DNA from: a virus
Direction: 5' to 3' (one strand)
DNA length: 32,385 nt
Virus record (IMG/VR): IMGVR_UViG_3300031898_000272
Coordinates: 1-32,385 of that record
The translations under genes and the position numbers were made by a program. Positions 3,701-16,442 of this stretch are shown here, piece after piece (the stretch's first letter is position 1; each line of letters begins with the position of its first letter). The notes beneath the pieces were generated by a model. It saw only the letters and a program-made list of their open reading frames with translations, was not told the DNA's origin and did not search any database.

Positions 3701-5563
3701 CTATCGTCTCCACTTCACTGCGTTGCCGAGCTCGCGGCTGATCATCCTTGTCAAATTGCCAAGGTCCTTGACTTCGCCAGTCATCGACTGAATCGTGATA
3801 GGAATGTTCACTGTCATGTGTGCAGGACCGGATGGACCTGTTCCCCCCCTCCTGGATGCTGCAAACCCACCCATCGAAGGCGATAGTGAGAAAGCTGCGC
3901 TTCTGAAAGTGCTCTCGATTCCACCCAATCCTCTCTGTGTCTCAGAGAGGATCCCTTGGATGCCTTCTTTCGTCTGCCTGACCATCAGGTTCCACATGTC
4001 AGGCCAAATCGACTCTTGTGCAACCTCGTTCGAGAGGTTTTGAAGGGTGTTCTGCGTTTGCTGGGCTCCACTCGACACCATGTCTGTGATCTGCTTCCAT
4101 ATGCCGCCGAGGAAACTGACGATGCCATTCCAGAGATTCGTGAAGATATCTGTGATCGTCTTGCCCCAGGCGGTGATTGTGTCGACGATGCTGCCAAGCC
4201 AGCCAGTGATCCCTTTAATTAGGTTATCAAAGCCTGCCTTGAAAACTCCGAAAACCGCATCCATCAGCTCCTGCACAAACGAGCCGCCGACAAGCCACTT
4301 GTAGAATCCCTCGAACGTCTCCTTGAGCCAAGCGATGAAGCCTCCAATCGATTCGATCAACTGTTTGATGAACGGGGCCACAACCTCCACTGTAGCCCTG
4401 AATCCTTCCGCAAGCAATTGAATCACAGGTGTGACCAGTTTGATGACTTCGACGAGTCCTTGCAGAGCTGGGACCACAGTGACCTTCAAGATATCTGCAA
4501 TGAGATTGAAGATGGTGTAGGCGTTCTTGCCTTCCGTGCTCACGCCGGTAAGTGCTTCCCAGATCTTGCCGAACGCCTCGAAGACAGGTTGCAGTGCGGT
4601 CCAAACATCTTTCAGGGCGGACCATAACTCCTTGAAGACTGGAAGCACTGCTTTGCCTAACTCGTCGCCAATGGTCGCAAATCCCTTCGTAAGATCATTC
4701 CAGACTTTGCCGAGTCCCTCAGCCATCTTCTGGACTTCAGGCATCTCAGCGAAGGCTTTCCACGCCTGACCTATTCCCGTCACGAGTGAATCTGCGCCTT
4801 TGACAACCTCCCCCATCATGTTCTGAAAGGTAGTCATGACAGGAATGAGAGCGCTACCGATTTTCTCCTTCAAGTTGTCCATTGCGTTGGCGACTTGTTG
4901 TTGCTTCCCCGCGTAGCTCTCAACGTCTTTCTGAGCTGCCCCGCCAAACTTCTGAGAGATCAGCTCCATTGCAGTGGCGAACTCTTTTCCTTTCGGAACG
5001 CTTTCATCAAGTACGACACCCATGCTCCGTAGCGGCCGCTCCATACCAATGAACGCTTTTCCGACCGCATTGGCAGCCTCTCCGAGACTCACCTGTTTGG
5101 CAGCTGCAAGATCCATCGTCTGCGTCATGGCTTTCATCGCTTGCTCAACACTCATGCCGTGGTCGATGAGCGTCTTCATGGCCGCTGCGATCTGTTCGTC
5201 ACTGAAACGAGTCATCTTCTCAGCGCTGGAAGCGAAGCTCTCAATGCTTGTTCTCGCACTCTCCCAGGATACGCCCGACCTCTCGACCGTTGCTGCAAGC
5301 CTCATCCAGACTTCTTCACTTGCCTTCGCAGACTTGAAACAATCCTGCAGACCTTTCGTGACTTCGCCGACTGCGGCTGAGGCTGCTCCCATTACGCCTG
5401 CGCCTGCGAAGCCAGAGATCACATTGCCAAGACTCGTGAAGCCCCCTCCAAGATCCCCGATCACCCCTGAGAAAACACCGAGGCTAGCGCGGACCTTATC
5501 CATGGCGCTGGATGCTTCGTCTACACCTTTGATTGCAACAACAACTTCGCCTGAAACGCTCAT
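3701..5563 (-). CDS. Tail tape measure protein
   Basis: 620 residues. It sets tail length and is threaded through the tail tube. Residues about 60-240 carry the typical tape-measure pattern: alanine-rich helices, 'SVEQAMKAMTQTMDLAAAKQ', 'LGEAANAVGKAFIGMERPLR', 'SMGVVLDE' and 'QKFGGAAQ'. Residues about 255-540 contain long helices and repeated hydrophobic W/F-rich segments (for example VWTALQPVFEAFGKIWEALT, WLGSIVDTITAWGKTI). Its ATG overlaps the previous stop (ATGA at 5560-5563). At roughly 1.5 angstrom per residue, a general rule for these proteins, 620 residues would mean a short tail near 90 nm. It follows the chaperone pair and a gp10-like gene, as expected for a siphovirus tail. Confidence 0.92.
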   Translation of the reverse strand: MSVSGEVVVAIKGVDEASSAMDKVRASLGVFSGVIGDLGGGFTSLGNVISGFAGAGVMGAASAAVGEVTKGLQDCFKSAKASEEVWMRLAATVERSGVSWESARTSIESFASSAEKMTRFSDEQIAAAMKTLIDHGMSVEQAMKAMTQTMDLAAAKQVSLGEAANAVGKAFIGMERPLRSMGVVLDESVPKGKEFATAMELISQKFGGAAQKDVESYAGKQQQVANAMDNLKEKIGSALIPVMTTFQNMMGEVVKGADSLVTGIGQAWKAFAEMPEVQKMAEGLGKVWNDLTKGFATIGDELGKAVLPVFKELWSALKDVWTALQPVFEAFGKIWEALTGVSTEGKNAYTIFNLIADILKVTVVPALQGLVEVIKLVTPVIQLLAEGFRATVEVVAPFIKQLIESIGGFIAWLKETFEGFYKWLVGGSFVQELMDAVFGVFKAGFDNLIKGITGWLGSIVDTITAWGKTITDIFTNLWNGIVSFLGGIWKQITDMVSSGAQQTQNTLQNLSNEVAQESIWPDMWNLMVRQTKEGIQGILSETQRGLGGIESTFRSAAFSLSPSMGGFAASRRGGTGPSGPAHMTVNIPITIQSMTGEVKDLGNLTRMISRELGNAVKWRR

Positions 5564-5910
5564 CTAATTGCCTCCTTCACGGCTTTCCAACCGGCCTGAA
5601 TCAATTCGTCTCTGTAGGCCTCGAGAGCTGGACGAATGAAAGGTCGAGCAGCCATCCGCAGGATTCCCATCTCGACGAAGAGCGCATAGTCAGCGGAAGC
5701 TCCAAACTCAAAGTCCAAGAGCCCAACCGGTTTGAAGAAAATAGTTGACCGAAGGTAGCCCGTACGAACCGGGCAGATGTCGTATGCATAATTACGCATT
5801 AGTCCTCCGACCGTCTGCAGCTGCTGTGAGAAAGATTCCTTGAGGCGAGCAGCTATTCGTTCCAGCATTGGGGTAGCAGTGTCCTTGGTGATGCGGATTG
5901 AGAAGCTCAT
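5560..5910 (-). CDS. HK97 gp10-like minor tail/neck protein
   Basis: 116 residues from the ATG at 5910 (MSFSIRITKD). A longer reading to 5988 exists, but 5910 is chosen because its ATG overlaps the stop of the GT extension (ATGA, 5907-5910). The family pattern is clear: helical start, 'PVRTGYLRSTIFF', 'FGASADYALFVEMG', and 'RPFIRPALEAYRDEL'. HK97 gp10-like proteins act at the head-tail joint or tail completion. Here the gene sits between the chaperone pair and the tape measure, whereas in many phages it lies between connector and terminator genes. Its end overlaps the tape-measure start by four bases. Confidence 0.85.
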   Translation of the reverse strand: MSFSIRITKDTATPMLERIAARLKESFSQQLQTVGGLMRNYAYDICPVRTGYLRSTIFFKPVGLLDFEFGASADYALFVEMGILRMAARPFIRPALEAYRDELIQAGWKAVKEAIR

Positions 5911-6104
5911 CTTCTTCGACCTTTCACGGATCTTGTGGCTTGCTTGAGTTGATGCCCCATCGCATGAAGCAGGAACAGGGCTTGACATAGCGGGATCCTA
6001 GCGACTTCTGATGGTGTACGATGCAGTAAAGAGCAGAGCGCGTAGAGCGCCTGTCCTTCCGGGGACCGCGCTAGGTGGGCGACGGGGTCCGCACTTGTAA
6101 AGGG
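5907..6104 (-). CDS. T extension of tail assembly chaperone GT (made by -1 frameshift)
   Basis: This frame is open in -1 relative to the G gene and has no credible start of its own. After slippage at CCCTTTA (6104-6098) ribosomes would read TSADPVAHLARSPEGQ and on to SVKGRRR, adding 63 residues to the first 121 of G, for a GT product of about 184 residues. The extension contains a compact helical pattern (ALYALCSLLHRTP, then LCQALFLLHAMG) like T segments of other siphovirus chaperones, which bind the tape measure. Its stop overlaps the next start as ATGA. The frame, heptamer register and gene order agree; the shift itself is inferred. Confidence 0.8.
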   Translation of the reverse strand, partial: PFTSADPVAHLARSPEGQALYALCSLLHRTPSEVARIPLCQALFLLHAMGHQLKQATRSVKGRRR

Positions 6105-6460
6105 GCCAGAGGTTTCCCTAAGCCTAGTGCGTTGATGATAGAGACGCATTTCGTCAAGCCTAGCTTCATCAGGTTCTCGTCGGTGACCGTAGAATCAGCA
6201 CGTCCCCAGGTCGCCAAGAGAACCTTCAAGGCTATCTTGAACGGATCCTTCTCTTCTGCGATTGTTGGATAGTCGCCGAAACGCAGATCGTGGTACTTGA
6301 TCTTGCAGCCAAGGTCCGGTACGAACGCTTCGCGTGGTCCCTCATCTTCGCTGAGAAGTTCGGCTAAGGTCTTGAGTTTGGCCTCTTCAGCTTTGGCTAG
6401 TCGCTTTGATTCCTCTTCCAACCGCTTCTCGAACTTGCTCTTCTTCTCCTCTTCTCCCAT
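6071..6460 (-). CDS. Tail assembly chaperone G
   Basis: 129 residues, ATG behind a strong ribosome site (AAGGAGGAG, about 6 bases upstream). Residues 1-40 are a charged helix rich in E and K (MGEEEKKSKFEKRL ... KTLAELL); residues 45-110 hold the small globular part (FVPDLGCKIKYHDLRFGDYP ... FKIALKVLLATWGRADSTVT). This layout, directly after the tail tube and before the tape measure, with an overlapping -1 frame, is that of lambda gpG and its relatives, which coat the tape measure before tube polymerisation. Its start lies inside the preceding small gene (74-base overlap). Confidence 0.85.
   Translation of the reverse strand: MGEEEKKSKFEKRLEEESKRLAKAEEAKLKTLAELLSEDEGPREAFVPDLGCKIKYHDLRFGDYPTIAEEKDPFKIALKVLLATWGRADSTVTDENLMKLGLTKCVSIINALGLGKPLAPLQVRTPSPT
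6098..6104 (-). promoter_or_regulatory. Programmed -1 frameshift slippery heptamer CCCTTTA
   Basis: On the minus strand the bases read C CCT TTA in the G frame (codons 120 Pro and 121 Leu), an exact X XXY YYZ heptamer in register (6460 minus 6103 is 357, a multiple of 3). Slipping back one base gives CCC TTT, so both tRNAs keep two or more pairs. Seven bases downstream is GGACC, with GGTCC about 20 bases further on, which could form a stimulatory stem. The -1 frame then stays open to 5907. Confidence 0.85.
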
Positions 6461-6665: not shown

Positions 6666-7064
6666 TTATGCCTGCGTTCCGAACTCTAAGCCGTCGCCTA
6701 TTCCTTCGACGCCTTCAGCCACAATGGCATCCTCGTCCATCGTAAAGTCCCAGACATTGAGGATCGCGTTCTTCACCGTGATCGTCTGCTTGCCTGTTCC
6801 AGCGCCCTCAGGGTAGAATATTACCTCAGCAGGGGTGCCTGCCAGGACCAGCTCTCCGTAGGTCTTGTCGATGTATGCTTTTTCAAGGGTAAAACCAAAG
6901 TGTTTGTTGCCCTTGATCAATGTTGGTTTGCCATCGCTGCCGTGCCCGTAGAACTCTTCGACATCGCGGGCGAAAGAAATGCTGGACGCGGTTGTCAGGC
7001 CTGAGCCGATTGTCTGGGTTCCGATCTTGATGGATGCCACTAGAGGCTTGAATGGACTAGACAA
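6666..7064 (-). CDS. Major tail tube protein
   Basis: 132 residues from TTG (MSSPFKPLVASIKIG), with AAGGAGG 12 bases upstream. The beta-rich pattern fits a siphovirus tube subunit: a start with 'IKIGTQTIGSGLTTASSISF', a loop 'FYGHGSDGKPTLIKGNKHFG', then strands such as 'TITVKNAILNVWDFTMDEDA' and a glycine-rich end. The size is typical of small tube proteins. It lies between the tail terminator and the chaperone genes, the conserved order. The many subunits would be assembled around the tape measure with help from G and GT. No separate sheath gene is seen, which supports a non-contractile tail. Confidence 0.8.
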   Translation of the reverse strand: MSSPFKPLVASIKIGTQTIGSGLTTASSISFARDVEEFYGHGSDGKPTLIKGNKHFGFTLEKAYIDKTYGELVLAGTPAEVIFYPEGAGTGKQTITVKNAILNVWDFTMDEDAIVAEGVEGIGDGLEFGTQA

Positions 7065-7127: not shown

Positions 7128-7508
7128 CTATGATTTCGTGATTAGGATCGTGATACGGAAGTCGAAGGATCGACGCCAGACGTCCTCCTCGGGTAGGTCG
7201 CGTCCTCCCCAAGGAACAATGTCGACGAAGCCCATCGCAGTCCTTGCCTCAAACAGCTTCGTGAGGACCTTGTCGGCGAATTCACGCATCTGACTCTCCA
7301 CTCGAGCCCAGATATCAACTTGGAAGCTCACATCCAGGTACTGCATCTTGTCAGGGAAGCCGCCTCGAATCCGCGTAAAGATCAACTGCAGAGTGGCTGA
7401 TGGCAACGGGAACCCGCGTGGAGGCCTAACCTCATAGACCGTCAAGCCCTCGATCTCACGAAGCTTCCCAGCGATCGCATTCTCAATGGTTTGGATAGGA
7501 GTCGACAT
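7128..7508 (-). CDS. Tail terminator / tail completion protein
   Basis: 126 residues, ATG start. The sequence runs helix-strand (MSTPIQTIENAIAGKLREIE), 'VYEVRPPRGFPLPSATLQLI', 'YLDVSFQVDIWARVESQMRE' and a C-terminal 'RRSFDFRITILI' strand. This is the pattern of gpU/DUF3168-type terminators that cap the tail tube: an N-terminal helix, a proline-rich loop, and a long helix between paired strands. It lies directly upstream of the tail tube, as usual. It begins 6 bases after the stop of the membrane protein. The 63 bases after its end hold only the ribosome site of the tube gene. Confidence 0.75.
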   Translation of the reverse strand: MSTPIQTIENAIAGKLREIEGLTVYEVRPPRGFPLPSATLQLIFTRIRGGFPDKMQYLDVSFQVDIWARVESQMREFADKVLTKLFEARTAMGFVDIVPWGGRDLPEEDVWRRSFDFRITILITKS

Positions 7509-7514
7509 GCGTCC

Positions 7515-7877
7515 TCATCGATCTGCCTTTTGGATATGTAGCCGTGAAGCAGTCAAGAGCAGGCGAACGTTCCATGCGCATCCAAAGCCAAGCAAAACCG
7601 TTGCAAGGATCACTGCTAGCCAGGCAAAAGGACGGAAGCGGGGAATATCAAGAAAGATGATCATAAGGTAGACATGTAGCCAGCTGACCGCTGCTACTTT
7701 GAGGACTGCGAACCATCCCCAGCCGACCTTTCCGATCAGCGAAAATAGGAACAGGTTGTCCTCTCGGAGACCATGATGGCGGATACCAAGCTCGGTGATC
7801 AAGAGGTCAAAGATGTTCAGCGCCCACATTACCCAAAGCAGGTTCACGAAGACAAGTTCAGACCACATGGCTCTCAC
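7515..7877 (-). CDS. Membrane protein (DUF5658-like) within the tail module
   Basis: 120 residues with three or four predicted membrane segments: about 8-27 (FVNLLWVMWALNIFDLLITE), 45-65 (LIGKVGWGWFAVLKVAAVSW), 66-80, and 85-107 (FAWLAVILATVLLGFGCAWN). The 'NIFDLLITELG' segment followed by an E/N-containing loop is like DUF5658 membrane proteins found in archaea and their viruses. The start overlaps the end of the connector gene by four bases (7874-7877), so it is translated with head-tail genes although it is not an obvious virion part. A lysis or membrane-anchoring role is possible; nothing in the sequence decides it. Confidence 0.7.
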   Translation of the reverse strand: MRAMWSELVFVNLLWVMWALNIFDLLITELGIRHHGLREDNLFLFSLIGKVGWGWFAVLKVAAVSWLHVYLMIIFLDIPRFRPFAWLAVILATVLLGFGCAWNVRLLLTASRLHIQKADR

Positions 7878-8501: not shown

Positions 8502-9581
8502 TTAGGCTGTGATCAGCTTCACGATGCCCTTCGTGTTCAGGACGCCTAATCCGTACTCCATCGTGCCATACAGGTAGGTCTTCCTTTCGCCAGGCTCGTA
8601 CTTCGGTTCCACTTCAGGGTCCCGCTTGACTTCCTCGACCCACACTCTCTCGCTGATCAGGAAAGCGTGGTAGGTTGTGATTCCTCCGGCGCCCGTGCCG
8701 GTCGGAACCTGTGTGGTCTTCAGCACCTTGATTCCAAGCCATTGTCCGATCTCGCCGTTCAATATGACTTCTCGTCCGCCGTACTGGGCGGCGTTGATGA
8801 ACTTGTCGCTCTTCAGCAACGGGCCTTCCTGTGCCGGATGGATGACCACCACGCGAGGCTCACGCTTCTCCTTCCGCATCGTGGTTATCGCATTCGCCAG
8901 GAGGTCAGTGGAGAACACATCGCTTGAGTCAACTGTGGCCTCCGAGGTGGCATCTCCACCGTAGAGGGTTCCTGCAATTCCTGATGCTGCTTCGAGCGCT
9001 GCCAAGATATCTTTGTCCTCTTTGTTGGCGACAGCTTCCGAGAGAAGATCTGTCAGCACATCGACCACATTGAAGGTGACTTGTTCGATGACTTGTCTTG
9101 TAACCGAGATCGCTGCGATAATCTCCTTTACCGTGATTTCCAGACGATCAACAGTCACTGCAAGGTCATCTGGCTTGGTGCCTTCAGTCGCATCAATCGC
9201 CTCAAGGACCGTGGGGACCTTGGGGAAGTAGAACTTGTTGCCGGGCTGGCCCCGCAGCGTCGTGTCAACGATACCTAGCGCCCTCATCACTCGCTTCGGT
9301 TGGGCGCCGAGTTCAACCTGCGGCGACCAGACGATCGGTATGGCTTTCACCGCGTCCGTTGTAGTCAAAGATTCGCGTAGTTTGTTGACGACCTTGATCT
9401 GCCAGGGCCCTATGGCTTCTTCGAGTACGGGTGGGGCTACGATCCCTTTCCCTGCTTCTTCCTTACTCACTTTCGGTTCAACCTCCTTCTTCTCCTCGAG
9501 CTGCTCCTTCAGCCGCAGAAGATCCTCTGTAGGAACATGCTCTAGGCCAGTAGAAGCATTCGAGGAAGGAGTCTCGTTCAT
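8502..9581 (-). CDS. Major capsid protein (HK97 fold)
   Basis: 359 residues; ATG behind AAAGGAG (8 bases). Residues 1-55 are a charged helix (TEDLLRLKEQLEEKKEVEPK) like the HK97 delta domain, probably removed by the prohead protease. Then come 'NKLRESLTTTDAVKAIPIVW', 'KFYFPKVPTVLEAIDATEGT', 'ISVTRQVIEQVTFNVVDVLT' and 'RVVVIHPAQEGPLLKSDKFI', ending 'YGTMEYGLGVLNTKGIVKLI', which matches the A-domain and P-domain order of HK97-type shells. It lies just after the protease and before the connector, the standard order. The unusually clear ribosome site fits high expression. Confidence 0.9.
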   Translation of the reverse strand: MNETPSSNASTGLEHVPTEDLLRLKEQLEEKKEVEPKVSKEEAGKGIVAPPVLEEAIGPWQIKVVNKLRESLTTTDAVKAIPIVWSPQVELGAQPKRVMRALGIVDTTLRGQPGNKFYFPKVPTVLEAIDATEGTKPDDLAVTVDRLEITVKEIIAAISVTRQVIEQVTFNVVDVLTDLLSEAVANKEDKDILAALEAASGIAGTLYGGDATSEATVDSSDVFSTDLLANAITTMRKEKREPRVVVIHPAQEGPLLKSDKFINAAQYGGREVILNGEIGQWLGIKVLKTTQVPTGTGAGGITTYHAFLISERVWVEEVKRDPEVEPKYEPGERKTYLYGTMEYGLGVLNTKGIVKLITA

Positions 9582-12710: not shown

Positions 12711-13271
12711 CTATCTCTTCCGAATTGGAATCAGAACTGGGGTTTCACTCTCTCGAGAAGCGTAGACAGCCAGAGCGATTGCCCATAGACGGTCGTCGTG
12801 AGTTCCTTCTGGATGCGAGAACTTGATCTGCCCGTCTTTCGTCAGCTCGAACTTCTCTAGGTTGACCTCGGCGATGACTTCAGGGTCGTAAGGGATTCGG
12901 AGGAGACGGAGATGATTGCATTTCGGGTTTCCGCAGGCTTCGACACAGTTCTGCATCTGCTGCTTCATGTAGCCAAGGACTTCTTGCTTCGACTGCATCG
13001 TGAGCATGATGCCTTCAACGTTCGTCAGCCCTGCTGATTTCATGTCCTCAACGACGTATTCGCCGACGCCTGTTTGGTCGACAAGGATCTTTTCGGGTTT
13101 GAATCGGACGGAGAGGATCTTGATGAATCCGATGACGCTGGCATAAGGTGTGTCGAGAGGGAACCGTTTCACGAAGATTAGCTTCGCGATCTTGTCTTGT
13201 TTCGCCGCGACTGCGACGGTTGAGTAGTCAACCTTCTTTCCGAGGTCAACTCCTACGAAGTGGAGTGGCAA
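12711..13271 (-). CDS. Terminase large subunit, nuclease domain (separate gene)
   Basis: 186 residues from TTG (MPLHFVGVDLGKK). The RNase H-like nuclease motifs are present: Asp9 in 'FVGVDLGKKVDYST', Asp65 in 'KILVDQTGVGEYV', and Asp159/Asp160 in 'EGTHDDRLWAIALAVYA'. This domain cuts the concatemer during headful or site-specific packaging. It normally forms one chain with the ATPase; here it overlaps the ATPase gene by 26 bases in the +1 frame. Together the two are 481 residues, a normal full length, so nothing seems lost. It may be translated alone (GGAG lies about 10 bases before TTG) or joined by +1 slippage at CTT-G. Confidence 0.85.
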   Translation of the reverse strand: MPLHFVGVDLGKKVDYSTVAVAAKQDKIAKLIFVKRFPLDTPYASVIGFIKILSVRFKPEKILVDQTGVGEYVVEDMKSAGLTNVEGIMLTMQSKQEVLGYMKQQMQNCVEACGNPKCNHLRLLRIPYDPEVIAEVNLEKFELTKDGQIKFSHPEGTHDDRLWAIALAVYASRESETPVLIPIRKR

Positions 13272-14133
13272 GGATATCGCTCTCCGAGATCAACGCCAAA
13301 TCTGGGTCGATGCACCGTGTGATTAGATCCTGTGGGAAGTAGCTGTCCTCATCCTCGACGAATTCCGCATCGTATTCTCGTCGGAATCGTTCGATCGGTG
13401 TGACTCGCTTGACTTCCTCGATGAAGTTGGGCTCGATGGGTCCGTGGGGTTTGACGCATGCCTGCCATGGCACGTAGTGTTTGCTCCAGCCTTTGCTGAT
13501 CTCTGGATGTGTGTTGATCTTGTAGAAGACTGAGTCTTTCCCCCAGGGTGTGCTTGATGCAATTAAGGTTCCGTTTGTTGTCGCCATCATTGGATAGAGC
13601 ACGTTGTAGAAGATCACTTCGTCGTCGCGGAAGAACGCCGCCTCGTCTATGAGGACTTGATGCGCTGTGTATCCTCGCAAGAGGTTCGGTGAACATGGTA
13701 GGGCGACCATTTGGCTGCCGTTGCGGAACCAGATCACTGTTCGCTGGACTTTGGCGATAAGATGCTTGCGGTCTTCAGGGGTCATGCCATAGATGAACGC
13801 TTGAATCCTATCCATCATGATCATCGATTGCCGGAGAGATGGGGCCACGATCAATGAGAGGGTTCGGGGGTGCGTGGCTGCATACCAGATTGCGCGGACT
13901 GCGATTGTTGTTGTCTTGCCTGCTTGTCGGCTCATGCGGACCGTGATTCTTTTCGATTTGTCGGTTAGAACATTGATCTGATACTGATACGGTGTGAACT
14001 TTAGGTAATGCTTGGCAAAGTAGACAGGACTATCATATGCTTTCTTGATGCGTGCAAGCGTGTCATTGCTTGCTGGCGCTGTCTTTTCCTCTGCGCTTCC
14101 GAGGCGTTTCTCGAGGGCTTTCCATTCCGACAT
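13246..14133 (-). CDS. Terminase large subunit, ATPase domain (separate gene)
   Basis: 295 residues. Packaging motor ATPase: 'FTPYQYQINVL' adenine-binding region, Walker A SRQAGKTT (68-75), Walker B VLIDEAA (160-166), coupling motif SSTPWG (193-198). The end 'RFRREYDAEFVEDEDSYFPQ' is the usual linker towards the nuclease, after which the frame stops at residue 295 and the nuclease continues in the +1 frame. Its start overlaps the RHH gene by 71 bases. All motor motifs are intact, so the split is unlikely to be simple decay. Confidence 0.88.
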   Translation of the reverse strand: MSEWKALEKRLGSAEEKTAPASNDTLARIKKAYDSPVYFAKHYLKFTPYQYQINVLTDKSKRITVRMSRQAGKTTTIAVRAIWYAATHPRTLSLIVAPSLRQSMIMMDRIQAFIYGMTPEDRKHLIAKVQRTVIWFRNGSQMVALPCSPNLLRGYTAHQVLIDEAAFFRDDEVIFYNVLYPMMATTNGTLIASSTPWGKDSVFYKINTHPEISKGWSKHYVPWQACVKPHGPIEPNFIEEVKRVTPIERFRREYDAEFVEDEDSYFPQDLITRCIDPDLALISESDILATPLRRS

Positions 14134-14760: not shown

Positions 14761-15114
14761 CTACTCGTCCTCGTCTTTTGATTTTCTGCGTGTTGGGAGT
14801 CTTTCTCCGACTTCGCGTAGCACGTCTTTCAGCAGGAAGAGGGCGCCGAAAGTGAAGAGCGAGACGGCGATGTTGAAGATGCAGATTAGCAGTAGCAGGA
14901 AGAGGACTGCTGCTCTTACGAGGACCGGCTTCGAGTGAAGCATTATCTCAATGACGTTTGCCATGGGTTCCTGGAGGAGGGCGATGAGTATCAATGCGCC
15001 AACCAATGAGCCGATGAAAAGCAAAGTCGCATATTTCCTGATGAAGTCGACGCGCACTATGTCAGGTCTGAGGCTAGCTATGCGGAACCTAAGCCCTCTC
15101 TTCTTTTCTTTCAC
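14761..15114 (-). CDS. Membrane protein with RFRIASL N-terminal motif
   Basis: 117 residues from GTG inside the end of the subtilase gene (26-base overlap). Residues 9-15 are RFRIASL, identical to residues 8-14 of the prohead protease. Membrane segments are at about 28-48 (YATLLFIGSLVGALILIALL) and 68-98 (AAVLFLLLLICIFNIAVSLF and on), and the tail is basic then acidic (RRKSKDEDE). The shared tag with the protease suggests common targeting, perhaps to the assembling head or to a membrane. Function unknown. Confidence 0.65.
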   Translation of the reverse strand: MKEKKRGLRFRIASLRPDIVRVDFIRKYATLLFIGSLVGALILIALLQEPMANVIEIMLHSKPVLVRAAVLFLLLLICIFNIAVSLFTFGALFLLKDVLREVGERLPTRRKSKDEDE

Positions 15115-16102
15115 CCTTCATCAACTCGTTGAGCTTGAGATAGGCTCGATAGGCGTTCACCCGCCCATGACCGAACGAGTACTTCTCGTCAAACTTTCTT
15201 CTCGAGAAGAATCGTGCGAGGGAGGCTTTCAGTCGATAGAGGAAGCCGCTCGGGAGAGCTGCGATCTTCGAGATCACAGGCATGTAGGCTTCGTCACAAG
15301 ATTCCAAGATTGCGCGTTTGATTTGGGCCGGTGAGGCTTGTGGGAAGGCCTGCTTCAGCAAGGCGTAGATTCCTGTCACGTGGGGCGTGGCAAAGCTGGT
15401 GAGGTCAAAGAAGCCGTAGTGGTCCCCATGGATATCGCAGGAATGGGTGCCCTGAGCTCTTGCTGCCAGGACCCTATCGCCCGGGGCAACGCAGTCTGGC
15501 TTCACTCGTCCGTCAAGGGTTGGACCTCGAGAGCTTGCTAGGCGTAGCACGTCGCGGTTGTTGACGCATCCAACTGTGATTGCTTCCTCTGCGGCGCCCG
15601 GGCTTCCTATGCTGTAGTGTTCTGGTCCATAGTTTCCAGCCGCGCAGATCACACCGATGCCTTTCTTTTGTGCGATGTAGTCGACTTCTCGGCTGACAGG
15701 ATCCCTTCCATCTGTCACGACATCGCTGACGATGCTGAAGTTTACTGCGTGAACTCCTTGTTCGGCAAGCCATTCAAGTGCGTCGATGAGAATGTCTTCC
15801 TCGGCGGATCCGTCTGCCTGAGTGACCTTTGCGATCGCAAGAGAGGTTTCGTATGCGATTCCTCTCTGCCGCCAGTTTTTCGCGCCTTTGCTTGCGATGA
15901 TGCTGGCGACCGCAGTGTCATGTCCCAGATCGTCTTGAATTCCTTTGGTGCTGAAGTCTTTTGCTGCCAGGATCTTGCCTTCGAGATCATGATGCGTCTG
16001 ATCTATGCCCGTGCCCACTACGCCTACGACTACGCCTTTGCCAGTGACGCCCTGATTCCAGAGCCTTGTGACGCCAAGACGTCTAGCGATGCCATAGGTC
16101 AT
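15089..16102 (-). CDS. Subtilase (S8) family protein with catalytic Asp replaced by Gly
   Basis: 337 residues from the ATG at 16102 (MTYGIARRLGVT); a longer frame to 16201 adds a Ser/Arg-rich segment overlapping the upstream gene and is not favoured. Counting from the longer frame, S8 landmarks are Gly63 in 'VVGVVGTGID' where the family has Asp (DTG), His94 in 'LGHDTAVASI', oxyanion Asn190 in 'CAAGNYGPE', and Ser269 in 'LTSFATPHVTG'. So three of four landmarks remain and the Asp is lost (codon GGC at 16015-16013). The 'HGTH' second His is also changed to Ala. It may be a pseudoprotease, a slow enzyme, or use another acid. The C-terminal region about 305-350 is basic. It follows a propeptide-like gene. 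Confidence 0.8.
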   Translation of the reverse strand: MTYGIARRLGVTRLWNQGVTGKGVVVGVVGTGIDQTHHDLEGKILAAKDFSTKGIQDDLGHDTAVASIIASKGAKNWRQRGIAYETSLAIAKVTQADGSAEEDILIDALEWLAEQGVHAVNFSIVSDVVTDGRDPVSREVDYIAQKKGIGVICAAGNYGPEHYSIGSPGAAEEAITVGCVNNRDVLRLASSRGPTLDGRVKPDCVAPGDRVLAARAQGTHSCDIHGDHYGFFDLTSFATPHVTGIYALLKQAFPQASPAQIKRAILESCDEAYMPVISKIAALPSGFLYRLKASLARFFSRRKFDEKYSFGHGRVNAYRAYLKLNELMKGERKEERA

Positions 16103-16442
16103 ACCCGACCACTCGGAATGGAATTGCTTTCGAGATGTTCTCGATTCGTGGTCCTCTCTCTTGGACGAGCTTGACGACGTCTTCCTCGAAGGCGCTGACA
16201 AGAACCGTGTTCAAGTGTGGGTATGTCTTCAGAAGTTCGAGCCGTGAATCCTTCACAATTTCAGCGTCTTTGGTCTGGATGAAGAATTTGAGTTTGCCTC
16301 TCATGGCTGGCTTGAATTGCGGAGAGAGATGATTTGAGAGAGCGATGCAGCAAGCCTTGACAAGGCACGGACCAATATGAGCCGGTTCGATAAGACAGAT
16401 GGATTTGTCGGCTGTGCTGAAACGGTAGATGCAGTCAGGCAT
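16083..16442 (-). CDS. Subtilisin propeptide/I9 inhibitor-like protein (candidate), separate gene
   Basis: 119 residues, ATG overlapping the upstream stop. Residues 48-110 resemble the I9 propeptide that precedes S8 proteases: strand 'GKLKFFIQTKD', helix, 'HLNTVLVSAFEEDVVKLVQE', then 'RIENISKAIPFRVV', like the 'V(S/A)AxL..E.V..L......V..I' pattern. In ordinary subtilases this runs directly into the mature domain; here the frame stops after 'YDLWHR' and the protease reads on in +1 with a 20-base overlap. Residues 1-45 hold five cysteines (C4, C16, C26, C31, C32), perhaps a metal or disulfide site. It may fold or inhibit the neighbouring subtilase as a separate chaperone. Confidence 0.55.
   Translation of the reverse strand: MPDCIYRFSTADKSICLIEPAHIGPCLVKACCIALSNHLSPQFKPAMRGKLKFFIQTKDAEIVKDSRLELLKTYPHLNTVLVSAFEEDVVKLVQERGPRIENISKAIPFRVVGYDLWHR

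Follow-up and report, generated by a model that had tools for sequence, protein, structure and literature searches.

Predicted −1 frameshifting at a C CCT TTA slip site in the putative tail chaperone genes of a virus assigned to Bathyarchaeia

The sequence analysed here comprises all 32,385 bases of an IMG/VR record and is referred to below as the window. Two overlapping reading frames, the second at −1 relative to the first, lie upstream of the tape measure gene, from which they are separated by one gp10-like gene. The features at and around this locus are as follows.

3701..5563, minus strand: tail tape measure protein, 620 aa (phrog_305, E 5.8e-23)
5560..5910, minus strand: HK97-gp10-like/Neck1 tail completion gene, in ATGA overlap with T (phrog_5, E 5.3e-15; alignment)
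5907..6098, minus strand: T domain, −1 frame, 63 codons followed by TGA, with purifying selection indicated for the T frame
5907..6460, minus strand: predicted GT fusion, 184 aa, by −1 frameshifting at 6104-6098
6071..6194, minus strand: overlap of the open G and T frames, the T frame opening 90 nt upstream of the heptamer
6071..6460, minus strand: G, putative tail assembly chaperone, 0-frame product of 129 aa with an ATG start and TAG stop
6098..6104, minus strand: slip-site heptamer C CCT TTA, in phase with G (from the sequence and its relatives)
6147..6149, minus strand: sole ATG upstream of the heptamer at which T might be started independently, not kept as a start in relative L006
6468..6472, minus strand: GGAGG Shine-Dalgarno sequence of G, 7 nt upstream of its ATG (read from the sequence)
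6666..7064, minus strand: probable major tail (tube) protein, directly upstream of G (weak match to Phage_tube_2, E 0.044; position)
7128..7508, minus strand: tail terminator/completion protein, gp17-like (PF11367, E 3.5e-4, below the Pfam cut-off; phrog_347, E 1.4e-3)
8502..9581, minus strand: HK97-type major capsid protein, used as a query for relatives

The heptamer stands in the G frame as GCC CCT TTA CAA, leaving eight codons of G before its TAG, and the first T codon re-reads the final heptamer base. From there the −1 frame stays open for exactly 63 codons (6098-5910) and closes at a TGA (5909-5907), which overlaps the ATG (5910-5908) of the gp10-like gene in the sequence ATGA (5910-5907). 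An initial annotation had described a C CCT TTA in the G reading frame, 63 further open codons at −1 and an ATGA overlap with the next gene, and each is found on the minus strand at these positions. GT is followed downstream by the gp10-like and tape measure genes and preceded by the probable tail tube gene.

Several other features of gene order and content were observed. The gp10/Neck1-like gene is placed between GT and the tape measure gene, not before the tail tube gene, an order which recurs in the virus group of the window and in bathyarchaeal proviruses (L028, L049 and others), while locus L033 (G088:C107) has the order gp10, tube, G/T, tape measure. The terminase large subunit (12711-14133, minus strand) is split at the ATPase-nuclease junction, with the nuclease part in the +1 frame. 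L007 and L020 share this split with the window, the DNA at the junction differing among the three, and the gene is unsplit, in one frame, in L014, L015, L017, L018, L019 and L021; the arrangement may represent a split gene, a second recoding event or an insertion scar. A Subtilase family peptidase (Peptidase_S8, E 5e-51; 15089-16201, minus strand) lies close to the packaging genes, and a DUF5658 protein (E 2e-8; 7515-7877, minus strand) is inserted among the head-tail connector genes. An N-terminal insertion with the motif SAFAW..LPHHD..GNVDRTHL occurs in or before the capsid protein of L011, L012, L013, L016, L017, L019 and L020, and is absent from the capsid protein of the window.

Relatives were sought with GT and the major capsid protein, yielding ten distinct contigs with a G/T pair (the window, L003, L004, L005, L006, L015, L017, L019, L020 and L021). 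We checked whether any of them lacked the heptamer or the −1 frame, and the in-phase C CCT TTA and the −1 T frame were kept in all ten, window included. In each, the 0-frame stop falls six to nine codons past the heptamer and T ends at or near the start of the gp10-like gene, with T identity to the window declining to 33–43% in the distant half of the group. GT and capsid profiles found no new window-group contigs in IMG/VR, and a search with the GT of L028 returned no additional genome. The string CCCTTTA alone is not unusual for the window (three observed against 2.14 expected), hence the weight of the argument rests on phase, place and conservation.

Codon usage in G singles out the same seven bases. 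The alignment of the ten G genes contains 43 columns with a single residue throughout, 25 of them four- or sixfold degenerate, and the comparison of synonymous conservation near 6098-6104 proposed in the initial annotation shows that only two of these 25 use one codon in every sequence: Pro120 (CCT) and Leu121 (TTA), which form the heptamer. The codon before CCT always ends in C, though the residue it encodes may be Ala, Ser or Gly. In seven of nine pairs, codons read only in the T frame gave pN/pS values of 0.12–0.31. Values for the other two, both involving L017, were 0.81–0.89, which we tentatively attribute to 3′-end anchoring of a T of different length, and the comparison points to purifying selection on the T-only codons in most pairs. 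This is contrary to G and T being a broken or misassembled single gene, an explanation which the source of the window, a single metagenomic contig in IMG/VR, might suggest; as the same arrangement occurs in ten distinct contigs, and in a different family across metagenome-assembled genomes (MAGs), its probability is negligible.

The T protein might alternatively be made separately, without fusion, from a start of its own inside G (ATG 6149). In nine of the ten sequences, the T frame does contain an ATG, GTG or TTG codon at a distance of 45 nt upstream of the heptamer. However, this codon is a by-product of a Lys-Cys or Asn-Cys dipeptide in G (AAA TGC, AAG TGC or AAT TGC), it varies between ATG, GTG and TTG, and it has no strong Shine-Dalgarno sequence, whereas G has GGAGG. 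L006 has no start there, yet its T is intact. Internal initiation would also leave unexplained both the frozen CCT TTA and the differently composed heptamers found at the same place in distant members (C CCT TTC, A AAT TTT, G GGT TTT and T TTT TTA), and we consider it very unlikely.

Our preferred reading, built on these comparative sequence patterns, is that −1 ribosomal slippage at this locus very probably yields G and GT as the tail assembly chaperones of a siphovirus-like Bathyarchaeia virus. The conserved heptamer, −1 frame and position before the tape measure gene lend strong support to the programmed −1 frameshift to G and GT predicted in the initial annotation. The account that follows of slippage, how often it occurs, how the tRNAs pair and what the proteins do is inferred. 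Most ribosomes would read G through to its TAG and release G, while a minority at GCC CCU UUA, with tRNA-Pro on CCU and tRNA-Leu on UUA, would slip one base backwards, the two tRNAs re-pairing with CCC and UUU. These ribosomes would then translate the 63 T codons to the TGA beside the gp10-like gene, producing GT. By analogy with lambda, G may coat the tape measure protein and the T part of GT may recruit the tail tube protein.

A downstream GGACC/GGTCC stem had also been suggested, and this part of the initial annotation was not supported. The two strings are able to pair in the window, but the complementarity breaks in relatives, with 30% of cells paired and no compensatory change. The consensus fold of the ten sequences reached only −1.3 kcal/mol, and single-sequence folding gave z = −1.16 for the window and −1.18 to +1.19 across sequences. 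With its pairing unconserved and the folds weak, we rejected the stem as a conserved stimulator, in an analysis covering simple stems only. As no downstream stem is conserved, slip-site identity is the only conserved signal found in these alignments.

The identification of G as a tail chaperone comes from fold comparison, which is suggestive and of moderate strength, and it is to this degree that the chaperone identity given in the initial annotation is supported. The best PDB match of an AlphaFold model of G (mean pLDDT 71.6) was the HK97 tail assembly chaperone 2ob9, with a moderate Z of 6.2, and the third was YqbN (Z 5.6; both VIA-align). Its top viral match was a tail assembly chaperone (probability 1.00, E 0.0097, a level at which chance matches are still possible). 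Tail assembly chaperones featured among its best viral matches at moderate scores (E above 0.001), the chaperone of the archaeal virus ChaoS9 being one of them. The T model weakly resembles tape-measure chaperones. G and T of the window had no convincing Pfam or PHROG family match, the GT profile returned no match when searched against PDB sequences, and tblastn against deposited phages found nothing. The T domain of a larger bathyarchaeal group matches the “tail assembly chaperone” family phrog_9001 (E 2.3e-12), which against GT of the window reached E 0.36 only; a partial link is provided by hhalign, which aligned 22 columns of the window T profile to the larger bathyarchaeal T family at 65% probability.

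The host was assigned through a relative. A scan of 84,980 species genomes found only one, contig JALHTG010000078.1 of a Candidatus Bathyarchaeota MAG, with a major capsid protein 81% identical to that of the window and ten stretches of DNA 68–85% identical to it. Also on this contig, 41.8 kb long, are L7Ae, whose closest matches are ribosomal L7Ae/eL8 chains of archaeal type, an ABC transporter, an aldo/keto reductase, an AIR-synthase-like gene and a glycosidase, the kind of gene content that a provirus within an archaeal chromosome should have around it. The single flanking candidate examined was not recognisable as an integrase, and no CRISPR spacer link to a host was found. A 32-base match (G172:C45) was rejected as a spacer, having no flanking repeats and looking like a piece of a homologous gene. 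The putative archaeal virus of the initial annotation is therefore supported as one with a Bathyarchaeia host, as judged from the sequence of this close relative, with MAG binning as the caveat.

Slip sites were surveyed across Bathyarchaeia using a gp10 profile for the choice of loci, which is blind to heptamers. It identified gp10 neighbours in 59 of 257 genomes, some on contigs of 0.3–2.7 Mb, and the 79 loci examined comprised nine from the window group and 70 from this search. A G/T pair with T at −1 was present in 69 of the 79, and every one of these pairs had an in-phase heptamer in the overlap. Counted by phase over the 69 pairs, 92 overlap heptamers stood in the slippery phase, compared with 15 and 11 in the other two. 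The commonest site was T TTT TTA (41 of 69), followed by C CCT TTA (10, the window group), A AAA AAA (7) and A AAA AAC (6). T TTT TTG, A AAA AAT, C CCT TTC, A AAT TTT and G GGT TTT occurred once each; a heptamer scan had supplied the T seeds for the one-off types, so that these few sites depend on it. Outside this tally, T TTT TTA was seen in L054, a locus assigned wrongly by the automated procedure, and in L046, and C CCT TTA in L090. All of a further 80 IMG/VR contigs with the large T family also had a site (T TTT TTA in 75, T TTT TTG in four and A AAA AAC in one); these are the best matches of that family, hence biased towards it, and are viral contigs counted irrespective of host. A AAA AAG was absent among all bathyarchaeal sites tallied.

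Many of these relatives contain T6 or A6-A7 runs able to slip in transcription, hence the frame change could be ascribed to RNA polymerase rather than the ribosome. In the window group, however, the site consists of C3-4 and then T3, lacks any long homopolymer and still holds the in-phase two-codon pattern X XXY YYZ, making transcriptional slippage a highly improbable substitute for ribosomal slippage. A +1 programmed frameshift of the HSTV-2 type was ruled out for the window and its relatives by the position of T at −1. T lies at +1 only in the G/T-like pair of G229:C239 (L034/L047), whose overlap lacks an X XXY YYZ heptamer; this may be a +1 shift of the HSTV-2 kind.

Taken with the predicted ribosomal slippage in the window, the survey raises a wider, joint reading to which we give an even chance: that G/GT frameshifting is common to tailed (pro)viruses of Bathyarchaeia, at slip sites which are mammalian-like (A-site UUA, UUU, AAC or AAA, never AAG), and that the ribosomes and tRNAs of archaea may be responsible for a eukaryote-like slip code, of which the C CCU UUA group would be a member without a long homopolymer. 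The proposed slip code follows from the sites never being AAG, whereas A AAA AAG is the site in two homologues of the T family from bacterial viruses.

These two are the chaperones of Bacillus phages Finn and Jayan; among deposited sequences, Bacillus phages provide the closest homologues of the larger bathyarchaeal T family. The two share with that family a T at −1 adjoining the tape measure gene and a T domain of 35–38% identity, but use the bacterial-type A AAA AAG, while the bathyarchaeal sites tallied are never AAG. The commonest bathyarchaeal provirus site is identical to the slip site of HIV-1 gag-pol, U UUU UUA, although the gene is unrelated and no conserved downstream stem was found on the bathyarchaeal side.

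The mechanism is of a known kind, well known in phages. Lambda-type G/GT synthesis uses a −1 frameshift at G GGA AAG (Xu et al. 2004, as cited in PMC7911831; PMC5009743), and like the window it has a short G upstream of the tape measure gene, a slip site near the end of G, T at −1 and a similar fusion. The window differs in its C CCU UUA heptamer, in the gp10-like gene between GT and the tape measure gene and in its archaeal host, and it has no detectable sequence similarity to the phage collection. In archaea, recoding is represented by one proven −1 cellular gene, the Sulfolobus fucosidase, and a few predicted haloarchaeal viruses (PMC8211752). The latter include HVTV-1, HCTV-1, -2 and -5, and Hardycor1, archaeal tailed viruses with a predicted −1 shift in the same gene pair (PMC5009743, PMC8211752, PMC7911831), from which the window differs in its UUA and in its host class, Bathyarchaeia rather than haloarchaea. 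The word “frameshift” is absent from the main text of two papers on Bathyarchaeia viruses and proviruses (PMC10848311, PMC11705971), and we found no prior report of a G/GT frameshift for this class in literature outside subscription. Well over a hundred conserved natural sites are now available in, or tied to, an archaeal class other than haloarchaea. Their heptamer preference differs from that of the two bacterial homologues examined, making slip-site choice by archaeal ribosomes and tRNAs directly testable, and the in-phase heptamer offers a simple aid to the annotation of archaeal tail genes, for which databases usually show two unconnected hypothetical ORFs. Compared with the known systems, what is apparently new is the host class, the breadth of the frameshift within it, and slip sites which appear mammalian-like rather than bacterial.
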